DNA from: a virus
Direction: 5' to 3' (one strand)
Virus record (IMG/VR): IMGVR_UViG_3300035136_000079
Coordinates: 1-42,277 of that record
Length of the DNA: 42,277 bases
In this document: positions 3,601 through 22,453 of the stretch, piece after piece
How positions within the stretch are numbered: the stretch's first letter is position 1
Layout: the number at the start of each line of letters is the position of its first letter
Notes under the pieces: generated by a model
Told to the model about the DNA's origin: nothing
Seen by the model: only the letters and a program-made list of their open reading frames with translations
Database searches by the model: none
Program-made: the position numbers and the translations under genes

Positions 3601-3639
3601 CGTTTCCTCGTTTCCTTTTTTTAAAAAAAATATTACGCT

Positions 3640-4067
3640 TCTGTTCAACTCCATTCCATTTCGGTTCTGCTCAGAGGTAATCAGCTCGAATCCACTCCAT
3701 TGCACTGCACGTCAATTCCTTTTCGTATTACCTCATTTCCATTCTAATCCATCTCCTGTCGTCTCTGGTCTTTGCAATTCTGTCTCGACTCATGACTACT
3801 CTGGTCTTTGCAATTTCATTTCAAATCATTTGTCCGCCATTCAATTCCATTGCACTGCACGTCAATTCCGTCTCGGATCTCTGCTTGTCAACTCTTTTCC
3901 GATTCAGCTCAAATCATGTCAGTTCATTTCAATTTCACGTCATCTCAACTCATATCCGAATCGCCTCGGGTCTCTTTTTATCAACTCTTTTCCGCCTCTT
4001 GTCCTTGCGACTCAACTCAAATTCTATTCAATTCATCTGCATTCATTTCTGGTCCGTCACTGTTCCG
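3640..4067 (-). repeat. Degenerate GANNN pentamer array, non-coding
   Basis: On the minus strand this stretch reads as a chain of about 80 units (by eye), nearly all starting G and mostly GA, at a step of five bases with occasional six: for example GAATT, GAATA, GAGTT, GAGTC, GCAAG, GACAA. It contains longer internal repeats: a 24-base repeat at 3696-3719 and 3846-3869, and a 17-base one near 3763 and 3799. The plus strand is pyrimidine-rich and poor in stops in all three frames. The minus strand has stops throughout. It fills a gap in an otherwise packed operon. Function is unknown. Confidence 0.75.
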
Positions 4068-5794: not shown

Positions 5795-5847
5795 GCGTTA
5801 TTATGTCACGCAATGTATGTGTTACTCAGTAACGCAAAACGCGTGAC
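5795..5847. promoter_or_regulatory. Operator cluster upstream of the replication initiator
   Basis: Bases 5829-5847 read GTAACGCAAAACGCGTGAC, a near-perfect inverted repeat of the heptamer. It is the exact reverse complement of 14120-14138. Further half-sites lie at 5795-5800 (GCGTTA) and 5805-5811 (GTCACGC). The cluster ends 11 bases before the initiator start codon at 5783, so bound protein would block transcription or translation of that gene. No consensus -35/-10 pair is clear here. A 37-codon frame (5806-5919, minus) runs through the site but is not convincing. Confidence 0.6.
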
Positions 5848-6259: not shown

Positions 6260-6808
6260 TTATTCGCTCGCCTCGCTGTCGTGGATGTTGCGGCCTGTGA
6301 GTGTCACAACGCCAACAATTTTTACATCTCCATCAACGATGATATTTCCTTTTTTTTCTTCCTGTTGTTCATCAAAATCTTCATCATCACTATATGATAC
6401 AAACTCGTCGCCAGCATCTTCAAAAATAAACGAGATCGTTGAAAAATCATCATCTGTTGATAGGCAGAATCCAGCAAACAAATCGCGATACTCGATAAAA
6501 CATTTTCTTGTTACAACAGAGTGGCCAGCAATATCTATGTATCCGGGGTGTGAGCTTTGTGACCAATATTCAATGCGACTATATTCAATCTCATCCCCTT
6601 CAAAAATGCGCTCTCCGTTCGCATCTCGACGTCCAATGTACTGGCAGACTGTTTTTGGATGCGCGAAAAACTTAACAAGCGCACCGTCTTCCCTGCTTTG
6701 CACTATCAATGCAGTATCACCACTACCACCATTAATTATCCCGCCAAACCACCCTTCAATCCAGCGTTTTGATCCGTGTTGTTTTGCTTTATAAATATGC
6801 TCTCTCAT
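6260..6808 (-). CDS. YopX-family phage protein
   Basis: A 182-residue protein starting at ATG 6808 with GGAG five bases before the start. The core motif TVCQYIGRRDANGERIFEGDEIEY corresponds to the hallmark of the YopX family (TVgQYTGlkDknGkeIfEGDiv). These are small beta-barrel phage proteins of unknown function, common in early regions. The C-terminus is unusual: a long acidic tract (about residues 140-155, SDDEDFDEQQEEKKG) followed by a strand-rich end. The RBS and the bases before it resemble those before the DUF5131 gene, a trace of the local duplication. Confidence 0.8.
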   Translation of the reverse strand: MREHIYKAKQHGSKRWIEGWFGGIINGGSGDTALIVQSREDGALVKFFAHPKTVCQYIGRRDANGERIFEGDEIEYSRIEYWSQSSHPGYIDIAGHSVVTRKCFIEYRDLFAGFCLSTDDDFSTISFIFEDAGDEFVSYSDDEDFDEQQEEKKGNIIVDGDVKIVGVVTLTGRNIHDSEASE

Positions 6809-6822
6809 TTTGTCTCCAATAT

Positions 6823-6942
6823 CTATTCATGAAGTCCATCCATAAACCTCTGTTTCATTTTTTCCGCGTGTTCCTCGTCGCCGAAGAATCTGGATGATCG
6901 CAAAGCGATCCCGTTTGACACCATGACCAGCTCACCGGATAT
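6823..6942 (-). pseudogene. Duplicated 3' fragment of the 72-residue gene
   Basis: The last 35 or so codons of the 72-residue gene at 7655-7873 are repeated here in frame (ELVMVSNGIALRSSRFFGDE...), ending in TAG at 6823. There is no proper start: an open frame extends to 7023 but lies inside the DUF5131 coding sequence. It is most simply a leftover of a duplication that placed DUF5131 between two copies. A fused small product cannot be excluded. Confidence 0.65.
6831..6934. repeat. 104-base direct repeat, copy A
   Basis: Matches 7681-7784 with one mismatch (caaagcg against cagagcg). The two copies lie exactly 850 bases apart and flank the DUF5131 gene. Weaker similarity continues leftward to the next start codon in each case. 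High identity points to a recent event. Confidence 0.95.
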
Positions 6943-7658
6943 GCATTCCACGTTTCGCCAAGCAGCTTTCTTCCATTCACTTTTTTGGATCTTTTCACCA
7001 TGTCTTCTCCCCAGGTGCCCCATTGTTTGAAAAAAAATGCGATCCCCTGTGCTTCACATTGATTTTTGATGGACAGCACCCATTCTCTTTTCATTGGCCT
7101 TGCGCGCGGGCCCGATTCTCCTCCCACAATCACCCAGTGAATGCCGCTTAAATCAATATCGCTCAGGTCTTCGAGAAGCGGTTCCATGGAAATGAATCTC
7201 ACCGGAGCATGAACACGTCGTAAAAAATCGATTCTGGGTATGCCACTTTTAACATCTTCCACTGTTACTCCCAGCCATACATTCGACGGGAGATCATGAG
7301 TTTCGCAGTACGCCTCCATTCTGCGTTCCCGTTTTGTGAGAATCTGATATAAATGCTGCGGTGTCCTGTGTATGGTTTCGAAAACCATGTCCAGAAACTG
7401 ATCGGGAATCTCTTCATGGAAGAGGTCGCTCATTGAATTTACAAAATAGCGCGTCGGCTGCCGTCGCTCCATGGGCTGCTGCAATCGTTCAGGTATAATG
7501 CTGACATTGAATCCGTTTTCATAACCGGCCGCTCCCATTGCATGTAATCTCCTCGCCATCACTTCGGCATAGCAGTTTGCACACCCGGCCGACACTTTTG
7601 AACATCCGGTCGTTGGATTCCAGGTGGATTCTGTCCACTCAATTTTAGATTTGCTCAT
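6855..7658 (-). CDS. Phage Gp37/Gp68 family (DUF5131), three-cysteine protein
   Basis: A 267-residue protein starting at ATG 7658 (ATGA overlap). The N-terminus MSKSKIEWTESTWNPTTGCS followed by KVSAGCANCYAE is diagnostic: C-x5-C-x2-C, a three-cysteine motif reminiscent of radical SAM enzymes. Other family blocks are NSMSDLFHEEIPD, ILTKRERRM, NVWLGVTVE, RFISMEPLLED and WVIVGGESGPRARPM. The biochemical role is not established. After GETWNAYP, the usual family end, the frame runs into repeat copy A and picks up about 25 residues in a foreign frame, so the C-terminus is not native. That supports insertion or duplication at this spot. Confidence 0.85.
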   Translation of the reverse strand: MSKSKIEWTESTWNPTTGCSKVSAGCANCYAEVMARRLHAMGAAGYENGFNVSIIPERLQQPMERRQPTRYFVNSMSDLFHEEIPDQFLDMVFETIHRTPQHLYQILTKRERRMEAYCETHDLPSNVWLGVTVEDVKSGIPRIDFLRRVHAPVRFISMEPLLEDLSDIDLSGIHWVIVGGESGPRARPMKREWVLSIKNQCEAQGIAFFFKQWGTWGEDMVKRSKKVNGRKLLGETWNAYPVSWSWCQTGSLCDHPDSSATRNTRKK

Positions 7659-7873
7659 TTTGCATCCAATGTTGATTTACGAAGTCCATCCATAAACCTC
7701 TGTTTCATTTTTTCCGCGTGTTCCTCGTCGCCGAAGAATCTGGATGATCGCAGAGCGATCCCGTTTGACACCATGACCAGCTCAAATGTTTTTCCAGAGA
7801 CTTTGGCGTTACCATTTTCGTCAGGTTCAACGCGGTCTCTCACCTGTGCGTAAAATTTCAGATGTTCATTCAT
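7655..7873 (-). CDS. Small early protein, 72 residues (parent of the duplicated fragment)
   Basis: Starts at ATG 7873, overlapping the end of a 28-codon frame, and stops at an ATGA shared with DUF5131. The sequence (MNEHLKFYAQVRDRVEPDEN, then ELVMVSNGIALRSSRFFGDE) is small, soluble and mixed-charge. I do not recognise the family. Its 3' half is the 104-base repeat whose second copy lies at 6831-6934. The context suggests a cargo slot that accepts accessory genes. Confidence 0.6.
   Translation of the reverse strand: MNEHLKFYAQVRDRVEPDENGNAKVSGKTFELVMVSNGIALRSSRFFGDEEHAEKMKQRFMDGLRKSTLDAK
7681..7784. repeat. 104-base direct repeat, copy B
   Basis: The copy inside the intact 72-residue gene; see 6831-6934. 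It differs at a single base. Together the copies bracket the DUF5131 gene and could delete it by homologous recombination. Confidence 0.95.
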
Positions 7874-11405: not shown

Positions 11406-11602
11406 GCCACATTCTGGATTGCCACAATGGACACCGGTCCAATTTTCATCTCAGTGTCATCCAGCCATTTCAGGATTGGCTCCGATGTCGTTTCGCGGAT
11501 TTCATTTCCCTGCCTCTCGCGGGGCAGAAAATTCGCCACTCCGAGACGATATGTGATCTCAAACTTTCTCATTTTTGTCCTCTTTCCGCCTGGTTTATTC
11601 AT
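11402..11602 (-). CDS. Hypothetical early protein, 66 residues
   Basis: ATG 11602 overlaps the upstream stop (ATGA) with AGGA five bases before. An alternative ATG at 11572 has GAGG six bases before and gives 56 residues starting MRKFEITYRLG. The product is strand-rich (EITYRLGVANFL, EMKIGPVSIVAI) and has no recognised motif. Confidence 0.55.
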   Translation of the reverse strand: MNKPGGKRTKMRKFEITYRLGVANFLPRERQGNEIRETTSEPILKWLDDTEMKIGPVSIVAIQNVA

Positions 11603-11913
11603 ACGCGTCCTGTCCCATTGCACCTGCTGCATTGCGAGTTTGCCGGAACCAGACCGCTTAAAATTTCTCTGCCGGTGCCTCCGCATATCGGACACATAAT
11701 TTTTGATTTCTCTTCCTCCAAAAGAATTTTCAACCGATTAACTTCGGTCACGTCACTGCCGACCCCTGTGTTACCTGTGGTTGACTCACCGAAAACCGAT
11801 GCGGCGCCGCAAACATCCTTCGCAACTGCTGCTATTAATTCAACTGATGCGCATATTTTATGTTTGTCAAATATGGCATCAATTGTTTCTTCCCAGTATT
11901 CCACGTCTGTCAT
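11599..11913 (-). CDS. Early protein with DnaJ-type zinc finger, 104 residues
   Basis: Starts at ATG 11913 after leader copy 1, with the shared AAAGGACCAAAAAATG start context. The N-terminal 75 residues are helical and acidic. The C-terminus has CPICGGTGRE and CSRCNGTGRV, two CxxCxGxG repeats as in the DnaJ zinc domain but with one pair of repeats only. It is probably a zinc-binding adaptor; the partner is unknown. Confidence 0.65.
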   Translation of the reverse strand: MTDVEYWEETIDAIFDKHKICASVELIAAVAKDVCGAASVFGESTTGNTGVGSDVTEVNRLKILLEEEKSKIMCPICGGTGREILSGLVPANSQCSRCNGTGRV

Positions 11914-11985
11914 TTTTTGGTCCTTTCAAAAGCGCCCCGACTTTGCGTGCGGTGGACCAGTCCGCGCCGGGACATGTGAGGGTCC
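11914..11985 (-). promoter_or_regulatory. Structured leader, copy 1
   Basis: On the minus strand it starts GGACCCTCACATGTCC, carries TGGTCC in the middle and ends AAAGGACCAAAAA just before ATG 11913. TGGTCC is complementary both to the 5' GGACC and to the GGACCA at the ribosome site. The whole 72 bases are nearly identical to 12968-13039 and close to 12209-12283. It lies between genes. No promoter-like hexamers are visible. Confidence 0.7.
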
Positions 11986-11995
11986 TTCAATTCTT

Positions 11996-12208
11996 TTATT
12001 TCCAAATAATCTGTGACCGACGAATTCGTTTTTTTCCATGAAAAAATTTTGTACGTTCATCATCAGACGATTCGGATTGATCTACTGTCATATATAGAGT
12101 TACAAAAGATGATCCGTACTCCGCAGTCGCGGAAAAATCCTGGCAAATTTGTCCAGCCGTAAATTCGTCAATTTCCCAATCTGTTGTCATGATATATTTT
12201 TTTTCCAT
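11996..12208 (-). CDS. Hypothetical early protein, 70 residues
   Basis: ATG 12208 follows leader copy 2 with AAAGGACTGAAAAA upstream; the longer open frame to 12433 is rejected because it reads through the leader and the neighbouring gene. The product MEKKYIMTTDWEIDEFTAGQ has an acidic middle and a basic end (KKRIRRSQIIWK). I do not recognise it. Confidence 0.55.
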   Translation of the reverse strand: MEKKYIMTTDWEIDEFTAGQICQDFSATAEYGSSFVTLYMTVDQSESSDDERTKFFHGKKRIRRSQIIWK

Positions 12209-12283
12209 TTTTTCAGTCCTTTCAAAAAAAGCGCCCGGCTTTGCGTGCGGTGGACCAGTCCGCGCCGGGACATGTGAGGGTCC
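12209..12283 (-). promoter_or_regulatory. Structured leader, copy 2
   Basis: The second copy of the leader, 75 bases, with three extra T in the run before GAAAGGACTG. The ribosome site here is GGACT rather than GGACC, so pairing with GGTCC would need one G-U pair. The 5' GGACC and the central TGGTCC are unchanged. Confidence 0.7.
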
Positions 12284-12290
12284 GGCTGTC

Positions 12291-12632
12291 TCAGCTATCG
12301 TTATCAATCCAGCGCTGAATTTCGCTGATAGAAAACATCTCAGAACTTTTCCAGTCATCAATACTGTCGTCATCCGGCAGTACCGGGTTGTCATCGTCGT
12401 CAAAAACAAACCATCCATCACCGTCAAAATCATACATGCTGATCAGTGCGGCAGGCTCGCGGTTTGCGCAGCATTCTCTATAGCATGTTGTGTTGTGATC
12501 AATGGTCACATACCCATCGACACCGATAAATAAATACCAGTCGCTGCTGCCCCATTTGTCGAGGTTGTTCCTCATCGTCATGACAACAGCATTTTGTATT
12601 TCTTCGAGTTCCATATTTGTAAAATCATTCAT
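12291..12632 (-). CDS. Acidic early protein, 113 residues
   Basis: ATG 12632 is inside the TAATG that ends the upstream gene, with GGAG six bases before. The protein is strongly acidic, with a run of Asp (FVFDDDDNPVLPDDDSIDDW) near residues 75-95. The N-terminal half has aromatic strands (DWYLFIGVDGYVTID). The charge would suit a DNA-mimic or inhibitor protein, but nothing proves that. It lacks its own leader and is coupled to the gene before it. Confidence 0.55.
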   Translation of the reverse strand: MNDFTNMELEEIQNAVVMTMRNNLDKWGSSDWYLFIGVDGYVTIDHNTTCYRECCANREPAALISMYDFDGDGWFVFDDDDNPVLPDDDSIDDWKSSEMFSISEIQRWIDNDS

Positions 12633-12967
12633 TATCGGCTCCATTTTTTGAGCTGTTCTGCCATTTGATGCGGGTAAATTGACGTAAAAACATTTCTTTT
12701 TTCGATTATAAATGCGGCATCATCACAGGATAAGATAAAATTGATGAACTCACACAGATCATTTATTTCCTGTTTTTTAATTTCCATATTTTTGACACGT
12801 TTTTCGAGCTGTTCGCCAGCCCATTTTCCAGAATCAATTTTTTTTTGCCTTTTGTCCAAATGAGTTAACATTTCATTTTTGGTTTTCTGCAAACCATTGA
12901 ATGGACTATTGATGACATTATCGATAATGTTTTTTGCCCAATTAATCTGTTTTTCAGTCCCGTTCAT
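12632..12967 (-). CDS. Hypothetical early protein, helical, 111 residues
   Basis: Starts at ATG 12967 after leader copy 3 (AAAGGACCAAAAA upstream). The opening NGTEKQINWAKNIIDNVI resembles small phage helical proteins that start with a KQ-x-WA-x-x-I motif. A basic heptad-like centre (KRVKNMEIKKQEINDLCEF) predicts a coiled coil. Its function is unknown. The stop overlaps the next start (TAATG). Confidence 0.55.
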   Translation of the reverse strand: MNGTEKQINWAKNIIDNVINSPFNGLQKTKNEMLTHLDKRQKKIDSGKWAGEQLEKRVKNMEIKKQEINDLCEFINFILSCDDAAFIIEKRNVFTSIYPHQMAEQLKKWSR

Positions 12968-13039
12968 TTTTTGGTCCTTTCAAAAGCGCCCCGACTTTGC
13001 GTGCGGTGGACCAGTCCGCGCCGGGGCATATGAGGGTCC
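12968..13039 (-). promoter_or_regulatory. Structured leader, copy 3
   Basis: The third copy, 72 bases, differing from copy 1 at only a few positions (CCCCGG and CATATG in place of TCCCGG and CATGTC). The three segments GGACC, TGGTCC and AGGACCA are intact. It precedes ATG 12967. Confidence 0.7.
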
Positions 13040-13051
13040 GGTATTCTGTAT

Positions 13052-13426
13052 TCAATCAGCTATATGCTCAAAACGGCCCGGGCAAGCGCCCGTCTCATCC
13101 CAGTATCTGCGACATGAGCAAATCCTGTCGCTCTCCCCATGATGATGCACCGGACATCCGTACGTATTCACGATCCATCTCGCGTCGGGATGAATCGGTC
13201 GTGACACCTCGTCCACACGCGGATTTTCCGCGTCGTACCGCCGGTCGAACTTTTTGATGAGTGCGTTCCACTCATCAAGATCAATGGGGTTTTCCGAGGA
13301 TATATTTAATTTTCTCTTGATTTCCAATTTGTATTTTTCAAGCGCTGTGATGCGCTTGTTGACGTAAGCGATATAATCATTATACCGCTGCATGCGATCT
13401 TCATATTCTTTGAATTCGTTGTCCAT
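13052..13426 (-). CDS. Early protein with coiled coil and Cys/His-rich C-terminus, 124 residues
   Basis: ATG 13426 is chosen for its GAGGACCAAATT ribosome context. The N-terminal half is a basic-acidic coiled coil (KEYEDRMQRYNDYIAYVNKR). The C-terminal 45 residues hold a cluster YGCPVHHHGESDRICSCRRY and a later CPG, which could chelate zinc. I do not recognise the family. Confidence 0.55.
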   Translation of the reverse strand: MDNEFKEYEDRMQRYNDYIAYVNKRITALEKYKLEIKRKLNISSENPIDLDEWNALIKKFDRRYDAENPRVDEVSRPIHPDARWIVNTYGCPVHHHGESDRICSCRRYWDETGACPGRFEHIAD

Positions 13427-13607
13427 AATTTGGTCCTCTCGTTGTGGCAGTCTCATCAGCGCCGGTTGCCACGCGGCGGACGGGCCACAGCCCGTTTCGG
13501 CTTTATCTCTCGACTACATTGTATCGTCGAGAATCAGTCTGGCTCTCGTCCGACAGATAAATCAGAGCGGCGGACGGGCGGAGCCCGTTTCGACAGTTAT
13601 TACGGCA
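13427..13607 (-). promoter_or_regulatory. Intergenic leader with several hairpins
   Basis: Four inverted repeats lie in 150 bases: GTGGCA/TGCCAC (13444-13449 with 13467-13472), CGGGC/GCCCG (13481-13494), TCTCGAC/GTCGAGA (13508-13532) and ACGGGC/GCCCGT (13574-13588). The second and fourth are parts of a repeated 26-27-base unit (13473-13499 and 13567-13592, GCGGCGGACGGGC core). It lies before the gene at 13426, so it is probably a structured 5' RNA. No T run follows the stems, so it is not a simple terminator. Confidence 0.55.
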
Positions 13608-14099
13608 TCATAAATACTCTCGCAATTTTGCAATCTGCCACGCCCGCGCCGCAGCCCTCTCCGCATCCCACGTCGCAGCAGTCGCCGCAGCCCATTCCGC
13701 AGCCCATTCCGCAGCCAGCGTCGCAGCCTCCGCCGCCGCCCACGCCGCATTCCACGCAGCATCCCGGTGCGCAGCCGCATATTTTTGCAATTCATCAATT
13801 CCGATGACGCCATTTGCGCAATCTCGTGTCCGGGATTGCAACGCATTAGATTTTGTTTTGACACAATCGTCATCCATTGAGTCAATCAATCGCTGTGCGC
13901 AGTCGACGGCAAACAGGCGATTAGACCTGTCATCCAAAAAACGAGTGATTGCCCAGATGCGATCCGCGACTGGTATGTCCAGCTCACTGATTTGCATGAG
14001 GGTCAATGACTCGTTTCCATCCCACAGCTCAGTCACGCGTTTAGCAGAGTATTCCGCCCCTGGTTTTTTTGATATTATCATTTCGATTGTAATTTTCAT
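13608..14099 (-). CDS. First early gene, protein with Ala/Trp-rich repeat tail, 163 residues
   Basis: Starts at ATG 14099 with AAAAAAGGACCAAAAA upstream, the first gene of the leftward unit. Residues 1-110 are a folded-looking domain (MKITIEMIISKKPGAEYSAK). Residues about 112-155 are an irregular Ala/Trp/Glu repeat (AAWNAAWAAAEAATLAAEWA) of the kind seen in several phage early proteins of unknown role. The repeat is GC-rich and slippage-prone at the DNA level. Being first in the unit it may be a host-takeover protein; that is inference. Confidence 0.6.
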   Translation of the reverse strand: MKITIEMIISKKPGAEYSAKRVTELWDGNESLTLMQISELDIPVADRIWAITRFLDDRSNRLFAVDCAQRLIDSMDDDCVKTKSNALQSRTRDCANGVIGIDELQKYAAAHRDAAWNAAWAAAEAATLAAEWAAEWAAATAATWDAERAAARAWQIAKLREYL

Positions 14100-14119
14100 T
14101 TTTTGGTCCTTTTTTCGTT

Positions 14120-14138
14120 GTCACGCGTTTTGCGTTAC
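14120..14138. promoter_or_regulatory. Operator-like inverted repeat, early side
   Basis: GTCACGCGTTTTGCGTTAC is the exact reverse complement of 5829-5847. It lies 21 bases before the first early start codon at 14099. A further half-site TAACGC follows at 14149-14154. Protein bound here would repress the leftward unit. Confidence 0.6.
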
Positions 14139-14308
14139 GCTCTGATACTAACGCAAGCACAATGCCAAAAAAAGCAAACAATAAAAAATTCAATGATTTC
14201 AAACACTTAATATTTTAACAAAAAACGATGATTGTGTAAAAGTTGCATAGCAATTGTGAAAAATATTAACGATTTTAATAGTTTATGCAGTAATTTACTT
14301 ATTTGCGG

Positions 14309-14325: not shown

Positions 14326-14354
14326 GCGTTATTGTGTCACGCATTTTGCGTTAC
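14326..14354. promoter_or_regulatory. Operator-like inverted repeat, middle of control region
   Basis: Bases 14336-14354 (GTCACGCATTTTGCGTTAC) differ by one base from the site at 14120. A third half-site, GCGTTA, precedes it at 14326-14331. The combined order GCGTTA, four bases, GTCACGC repeats the order found at 5795-5811. Confidence 0.6.
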
Positions 14355-21544: not shown

Positions 21545-22453
21545 ATGGGATACAATCTTCAGGGATACATCGATGATGTGGTCATCCCTAAAATAATGGA
21601 GACGGTATTTGTCACGGATCTTCAGCCGATGCTGGATCTGTTCAACACGGATCCGTTTCATACAGGCGGTCCGAACATCGTAAAAAACATCTGCGTGTCG
21701 GAGACATCAAACGCCGCGAACTATACAAGAACTGATGTCAACCCGGCTCCTGATTCGTTTGAGACCGCGCAGGCCAGCTGGACGAGAAGATATCAGCATG
21801 TCGCGTATGATGCGCACGGGATCGATCTGTCTCAGGCGGAAGAGGGAGGGATAAAGGGAGTTCAGGATCTTGTGAAGTACAAGAGCATGAAGGCGTTCGC
21901 CCAGCTAAGAAAACTGATTTTCGACGATTTCTATTCCAGGCTTCATGCCGATATCGATTCAACCACCCCATATTCTGATGCGGGAATTTCCCGTTCCGAT
22001 TATCCGACGCTGGCGTCAAATGAGGATGATTCAGACAACACAGTTACTCTCGCCGAAATGAGAGCACTGAAATTCGCGACGCACCTCAACAAAAACACGG
22101 AAAGAGAAAACTATCTGTGGATTGTCGAGCCAACCGTCAACAAAGCCCTTCAGGCACTTATCGTCGCAGAGTTCGGACGATATCTCGTGGATCCGCAGAG
22201 GAATCAGGGTTATGCCGGCGGATATCAGCAGGCGGAAAGTTTTGATGGAGATCGCGTCATTGAGATGATCGGCATGACCGTTGGTGACATGTTCTACATG
22301 AATCCAATGGATGCGTATGTGGACAACCATCGTCCGCTTTCCATCGAACAGGTTCCGTCCGGAAAGGACTCTGTTGAATTTGTAATGCGAATCGGGATGG
22401 AAATGTGGGTGGACAACCCGGGTCATCAGTCGAAGATGACCAACAAGGATTGA
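21545..22453 (+). CDS. Major capsid protein
   Basis: A 302-residue protein with GGAGG five bases before ATG 21545. Blocks such as NAANYTRTDVNPAPDSFETA, WTRRYQHVAYDAHGIDLSQA and RVIEMIGMTVGDMFYMNP fit an HK97-fold coat protein. Size and position between the scaffold and a small strand-rich protein support it. I cannot assign a specific Pfam coat family. No N-terminal delta domain is evident, consistent with a separate scaffold. Confidence 0.85.
   Translation: MGYNLQGYIDDVVIPKIMETVFVTDLQPMLDLFNTDPFHTGGPNIVKNICVSETSNAANYTRTDVNPAPDSFETAQASWTRRYQHVAYDAHGIDLSQAEEGGIKGVQDLVKYKSMKAFAQLRKLIFDDFYSRLHADIDSTTPYSDAGISRSDYPTLASNEDDSDNTVTLAEMRALKFATHLNKNTERENYLWIVEPTVNKALQALIVAEFGRYLVDPQRNQGYAGGYQQAESFDGDRVIEMIGMTVGDMFYMNPMDAYVDNHRPLSIEQVPSGKDSVEFVMRIGMEMWVDNPGHQSKMTNKD

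Follow-up and report, generated by a model that had tools for sequence, protein, structure and literature searches.

Elements that recur directly upstream of unrelated genes have been described in cluster K mycobacteriophages, whose SAS, in the available parts of two reports, constitute a start motif that is extended in the upstream direction at a subset of genes (PMC3203893; PMC12699233). The same parts of these reports call the function of start-associated repeats unverified (PMC3203893; PMC12699233), and the authors of the former consider the extended repeats as more likely to be DNA-binding sites than RNA hairpins (PMC3203893). A tested example of a short intergenic ORF is mgtQ of the Salmonella mgtCBRU operon, which, in the accessible part of its report, overlaps alternative stems, with one of them masking the ribosome site of the next gene (PMC8092293). 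A further precedent for RNA elements placed around a gene is found in Agrobacterium, where three hammerheads surround ardA according to the accessible sections of the respective study (PMC3088659).

Here we have analysed a leader element that is present in three copies in a viral genome and of which we found no description in the literature, which is no proof of absence. The window, a term that we use for the entire stretch of analysed DNA, is a virus sequence of 42,277 bases with a repeat of 28 nt at its ends, and on the basis of this end repeat it is probably a complete circular phage map. Its plus strand encodes terminase, tail sheath, baseplate hub, tape-measure-like and baseplate J proteins, and this tail sheath, baseplate and tape-measure-like gene set assigns the virus to the contractile-tailed phages. 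The minus strand carries, from about 14.1 kb downward, exonuclease VIII-like recombination and replication-initiation genes, on account of which we refer to this leftward operon as presumably early.

Three leader copies in a leftward operon

On the minus strand, the genes and the leader copies c1 to c3 follow in the order gene a, a gap of 181 nt, gene b, c3, genes c and d, c2, gene e, c1 and gene f:

14099-13608, minus strand: gene a
13426-13052, minus strand: gene b
12968-13039, minus strand: leader c3, directly before gene c (start 12967)
12632-12967, minus strand: gene c, 111 amino acids, with only weak family matches
12644-12291, minus strand: gene d, overlapping the end of gene c, without a leader
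12209-12283, minus strand: leader c2, before gene e (start 12208), with indels and AGGACT at the ribosome site
11996-12208, minus strand: gene e, 70 amino acids, no family match
11914-11985, minus strand: leader c1, directly before gene f (start 11913)
11599-11913, minus strand: gene f, 104 amino acids, phrog_27975, with a DnaJ-like zinc motif

The segment 12964-13039 is 97% identical to 11910-11985 in an ungapped comparison; for 12208-12283 the identity amounts to 76% ungapped and 91% locally, the difference stemming mostly from a few indels. With filters switched off, a covariance model recovers the three copies at 98-108 bits and, with the next match at 13.5 bits, no fourth copy in the window. 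Each leader begins 7-12 nt past the preceding stop codon and ends at the following start codon, and all are rich in G+C (59-61%, compared to 33-47% in genes c, e and f). Comparison of genes a to g with one another has revealed no meaningful similarity, and genes c, e and f were for this reason rejected as paralogues. Identity, covariance-model matches and gene comparison thus agree with the initial annotation, which had described three near-identical leaders at these positions before three unrelated small genes, each with a 5′-terminal GGACC, a central TGGTCC and, ahead of the ATG, AGGACC (c1, c3) or AGGACT (c2), all of which are present. The triplicated leader is confirmed, with the three copies counting as one duplicated event and not as three observations. 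Within gene a, the segment 13642-13785 (minus strand) contains repeats with a period of 12 nt, which encode an alanine-rich tail (AAEWAAEWAAA).

Judged from its distribution, GGACC is a local ribosome-site motif that extends beyond the leader element. In the whole window, GGACC-N5-ATG is found seven times on the minus strand, always within the same 2.2 kb, and not once on the plus strand, and the seven occurrences are the starts of genes a, b, c and f (14099, 13426, 12967 and 11913) and of three mini-ORFs described below. Two of these gene starts are devoid of the leader element:

13424-13438, minus strand: start motif GAGGACCAAATTATG before gene b, no leader element
14097-14111, minus strand: start motif AAGGACCAAAAAATG before gene a, no leader element

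The longer form AGGACCAAAxxATG precedes genes a, b, c and f, with a variant before gene e, and three of these five starts carry an extension of 60 nt. A scan with GAGGACCAAAAAATG that permitted up to three mismatches returned eight matches, a number reached in none of 100 shuffles, with four located at gene starts (one or two mismatches) and four being weak (three mismatches). Since genes a and b use GGACC without the element, the GGACC at the 3′ end of the leaders is not there on account of pairing.

Loop pairing and the enclosed reading frame

The pairing potential of the leaders was investigated in folds where the UGGUCCA stretch of each copy was kept unpaired, which resulted in a hairpin that carries a bulge of 7 nt and closes with a loop of 9 nt:

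11934-11973, minus strand: hairpin c1, constrained fold of 8 + 4 bp with a 7-nt bulge and the 9-nt loop ACUGGUCCA
12231-12271, minus strand: hairpin c2, constrained fold
12988-13027, minus strand: hairpin c3, constrained fold of 8 + 4 bp
11954-11959, minus strand: loop UGGUCC of c1, complementary to the GGACC of both ends
12252-12257, minus strand: loop UGGUCC of c2
13008-13013, minus strand: loop UGGUCC of c3
11919-11924, minus strand: ribosome site AGGACC of gene f
12215-12220, minus strand: ribosome site AGGACT of gene e
12973-12978, minus strand: ribosome site AGGACC of gene c

The calculated energy of the duplex between loop and ribosome site is -11.0 kcal/mol in c1 and c3 and -7.7 kcal/mol in c2, and that of the duplex between loop and 5′ GGACC is -8.8 kcal/mol. 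Among 43 starts that were chosen for comparison from the ORF list of this genome, genes c, e and f occupy the first three ranks for pairing between a hairpin loop and the ribosome site, an arrangement that is absent at 30 of the starts; the duplex measure without the hairpin is less striking, with c1 and c3 first and second and c2 twelfth of 43. In shuffles that keep both element ends, a ribosome-site contact of at least equal quality emerged 15, 84 and 5 times in 1000 (c1, c2 and c3), an equivalent 5′ contact 2, 4 and 1 times in 1000 and both contacts jointly 1, 3 and 1 times in 1000, in tests that were framed after the sequence had been seen and for contacts that are not independent because GGACC is found at both ends. 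In c2, where it requires two G-U pairs, the ribosome-site pairing alone is thus not significant (84 of 1000). Dinucleotide shuffling of c1 produced a looser 5-mer pattern of the form X..X′..X 124 times in 3000.

No excess of folding energy over shuffles was detected in any copy (z of -0.79, +0.53 and -1.84 for c1, c2 and c3). None of the 33 pair cells departs from standard pairing in the three copies, a count for which the shuffle control is uninformative, and among the 11 pairs eight are invariant, three vary on one side and none on both, leaving these three near-identical copies free of compensatory changes. The view of the initial annotation that the middle segment is able to pair with either end is upheld by the ranks among the 43 starts and by shuffles that are strong for c1 and c3 and weak for c2. 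As calculated, the pairing potential is genuine and stands out within this genome, yet it rests on one duplicated sequence.

A feature overlooked by the initial annotation is a mini-ORF inside each leader, where the 5′ GGACC of the element sits as its ribosome site:

11910-11975, minus strand: mini-ORF c1, 21 codons, with GGACC-N5-ATG at its start and its TGA overlapping the gene start as ATGA, putatively translated
12187-12273, minus strand: mini-ORF c2, 28 codons, passing the gene start, with its TGA overlapping an in-frame ATG at codon 7 of gene e
12964-13029, minus strand: mini-ORF c3, 21 codons, with its TGA overlapping the gene start as ATGA

The layout of a leader ORF, consisting of ribosome site, start, open frame and a stop on the gene start, is seen in c1 and, with a short site core, in c3; in c2 the frame overruns and stops 19 nt beyond the start of gene e. 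A comparable frame ending at the gene start, defined as an ATG ORF of at least 10 codons with a GGA-like site, appears in about 3% of shuffled elements (161 times for c1 and 160 times for c3, with 5000 shuffles each). The match of the mini-ORFs to a canonical Shine-Dalgarno sequence is short in c2 and c3, as their 5′ GGACC has no preceding A. Codon usage, considered as potential support for the mini-ORFs, came out against them, with values of -0.16, -0.07 and -0.22 that are each lower than -0.003, the 10th percentile for windows taken from genes. The 5′ GGACC can be read as pairing partner of the loop or as ribosome site, and these competing readings are compatible.

We tentatively favour a model in which the leader would act as a copied translational control cassette, where the loop would cover one or the other of two ribosome sites and translation of the mini-ORF would free the gene, a plausible account about which we are slightly more doubtful than confident. 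The cassette would comprise, in this order, GGACC with the start codon of the mini-ORF, a hairpin built from mini-ORF codons, and the ribosome site and start of the gene. Bound to the ribosome site of the gene, the apical loop UGGUCC would turn the gene off; bound to the ribosome site of the mini-ORF, it would leave that of the gene free, and it could never occupy both at once. A ribosome translating the mini-ORF would open the hairpin and, in c1 and c3, would halt at the ATGA on the gene start codon, which may couple the two. Because pairing with the ribosome site is in c2 weaker (-7.7 kcal/mol) than pairing with the 5′ end (-8.8 kcal/mol), repression of gene e is predicted to be weaker than that of genes c and f. 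What we observe are sequence features, their statistics and a start grammar that is common to neighbouring genes; formation of the pairings, translation of the mini-ORF, its coupling to the gene and any sensing of an outside signal are inferred.

The loop pairing statistics would also be expected for a structured leader with a nonfunctional mini-ORF, where the loop covers the ribosome site and either an RNA-binding protein of the phage or its host, such as a CsrA-like protein at GGA, or temperature decides. The GGA motif is a CsrA site, and each leader copy holds three such motifs with one of them located at the ribosome site. A codon usage unlike that of phage genes would also be accommodated, whereas chance would have to account for both the ATGA overlaps and the precise fit to the GGACC-N5-ATG grammar, and we regard this explanation as rather unlikely.

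Copying, RNA processing and DNA-level features

The near-identity of the leaders implies recent copying, and the copies occupy the entire intergenic gaps between unrelated genes, as would be expected for a neutral or recombinational repeat, a block copied by gene conversion or along with gene cassettes that would at most serve as homology for the swapping of small genes. Such an origin is also supported by another recent direct repeat of 131 nt, which flanks a gene at 6804-7784. Conversely, the leader copies share a single orientation and stand precisely where a gene begins, the ribosome site is kept in each of them and their pairing tops that of 43 starts, which in combination render a neutral or recombinational repeat unlikely. 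The two units of the 131-nt repeat (6804-6934 and 7654-7784) are 94% identical and located at both ends of the gene, whose protein is annotated as DUF5131 in a Gordonia phage record, and the region 6804-7784 resembles the product of a recent gene insertion in which the flank was duplicated.

A defined RNA element is found in the same operon:

13442-13502, minus strand: type II hammerhead ribozyme, Rfam RF02276, 38.9 bits (gathering score 37)

The hammerhead occupies the gap before gene b and is located directly upstream of the ribosome site of this gene. From its core, read by eye, cleavage is expected between 13479 and 13478, and a 6-bp pseudoknot, also identified by eye, joins the loop of stem I (GUGGCA) to the 3′ tail (UGCCAC); pairing of loop I with the 3′ tail is described for most type II hammerheads in the accessible sections of the respective study (PMC3088659). 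About 95 nt upstream, at 13567-13591 (minus strand), the 5′ portion of the hammerhead (GAAACGGGCT..GCCCGTCCGCCGC, 13473-13498), amounting to one half of it, recurs without an intact CUGAUGA; this is possibly a decayed second ribozyme, for which a search of 11900-14200 at E up to 10 returned no Rfam match. The presence of a structured RNA in an adjacent gap of the same operon makes an RNA role of the leaders more plausible, and the leaders may conceivably be processing sites as well.

As RNA-processing elements, possibly self-cleaving or cut by an RNase, the leaders would separate single-gene messages as the neighbouring hammerhead may do. This proposal draws on an operon position that is the same as that of the type II hammerhead, on a compact and pseudoknot-capable fold and on the precedent of the three hammerheads of Agrobacterium ardA described in the accessible sections of its report (PMC3088659). 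It is nevertheless improbable, as the leaders match no Rfam family at E up to 10, no catalytic core was recognised by eye and the three copies offer no covariation. The leaders do not show the hammerhead core of CUGANGA, GAAA and UH in three stems, with RF02276 being found exclusively at 13442-13502, and match no other ribozyme family in Rfam; a scan with a type I/III-like hammerhead pattern hit a single site outside the leaders, at chance level.

A role of the leaders as DNA element, either promoter or operator, is very improbable, as the short inverted repeat GGAC-TG-GTCC and the preference for DNA-binding sites expressed in the available part of the cluster K study (PMC3203893) are opposed by the lack of a sigma-70-like promoter within any leader, by two 9-of-12 matches (12225-12196 and 12216-12189) that touch only the 3′ end of c2 and by the absence of the likely operator palindromes from the leaders. 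Over the region, nine sigma-70-like matches were found versus 6.8 expected. The exact palindromes GTMACGC-N5-GCGTKAC at 5829-5847, 14120-14138 and 14336-14354, besides which there is no other match with fewer than three mismatches, are likely repressor operators at early promoters. On the minus strand, about 430 nt (3630-4060) consist of degenerate GARTTGA-like repeats with no clear minus-strand gene.

Relatives and described systems

The leaders retrieved nothing from Rfam (cmscan, with E up to 1 for the window and up to 10 for 11900-14200). Searches in phages were similarly empty for the leader element (blastn, which also included plasmids), for 11500-13500 (megablast in phage records) and for terminase, tail sheath, gene b and gene c (tblastn); gene f identified three Vibrio phage records at 30% identity, whose corresponding region was included in the covariance search described below. 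No matches were obtained for terminase and the ORF at 21545-22453 in viral contigs, for terminase in genome contigs and for the exact 25-nt core in viral contigs. Several looser candidates were rejected: ten out of ten matches to a 17-nt core have different flanks, none of the ten stretches found with a triple-segment pattern, mostly repetitive coding-type sequence, resembles the element, and the grammar of the mini-ORF cassette returned two stretches that are both one low-complexity repeat. A peptide-coding pattern selected two loci, L108 and L109, which were judged as chance, with L108 residing within an open Cys-x-x-Cys frame on the opposite strand. The 80 loci with a relative of the ORF at 6855-7658 were dismissed as kin, since none of the 91 loci that were searched has matches to more than 2 of the 52 window proteins.

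A covariance search for the element, which the initial annotation had suggested for other phages, covered 96 of 109 loci (L001-L004 belong to the window itself and were omitted, as were L097-L104 and L109) and did not recover it, the best score being 23 bits at L108, a locus preselected by sequence, and the scores below belonging only to core matches picked by pattern. Every search for a leader homologue was thus empty or at chance level, which is no proof of uniqueness because records very close to the window may have been passed over, and no homologue is at hand from which conservation or covariation could speak for the model. The reading of the initial annotation as a switchable leader is partly supported, with respect to a repeated leader with two-way pairing that ranks in the top three of 43 starts; its variant as ligand-binding riboswitch is not supported, as no described aptamer family was found on the leaders in Rfam at E up to 10.

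With respect to described systems, the type II hammerhead (RF02276; PMC3088659) is here found in a gap like those of the leaders and within their operon, but the three leaders match neither RF02276 nor any other Rfam family. The resemblance to mgtQ, in the accessible part of its description, concerns the segment masking the ribosome site of the next gene, which has an alternative partner in both cases. However, mgtQ comprises 8 codons in a single copy, whereas the leaders contain 21-28 codons in three copies that are known from sequence alone. They also differ from mgtQ in the overlap of the stop with the gene start codon in two copies and in the identity of the second partner, which is the ribosome site of the mini-ORF itself.

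The arrangement of cluster K SAS, as far as the available parts of the reports extend, is similar in the repetition of a motif a few nucleotides before the ATG of unrelated non-structural genes, in one orientation and with large upstream gaps, a placement that we also find for the motif at the starts 11913, 12967, 13426 and 14099. About half of the SAS carry an extra conserved upstream block, as compared to three of five extended starts in our case. The sequence is in contrast unrelated, with no match to the SAS sequence GGGATAGGAGCCC at up to two mismatches, and the extended SAS is described as a pair of 17-nt inverted repeats instead of a hairpin with an anti-Shine-Dalgarno loop and a mini-ORF. 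Moreover, there are just three extended copies here in one genome.

Leader ORFs and hairpins that mask a Shine-Dalgarno sequence are each known singly, and their combination in one cassette before three unrelated genes would be the addition of this locus. We consider it possible, albeit doubtful, that a single anti-Shine-Dalgarno loop arbitrates between two ribosome sites of the same core and has spread as a cassette that co-regulates unrelated genes, with a hammerhead in the adjoining gap. The two-site arrangement predicts that mutation of the loop would alter both starts. If true, this would illustrate how copies of a portable leader can provide a phage with a post-transcriptional regulon, and it would offer a testable mechanism for start-associated repeats.
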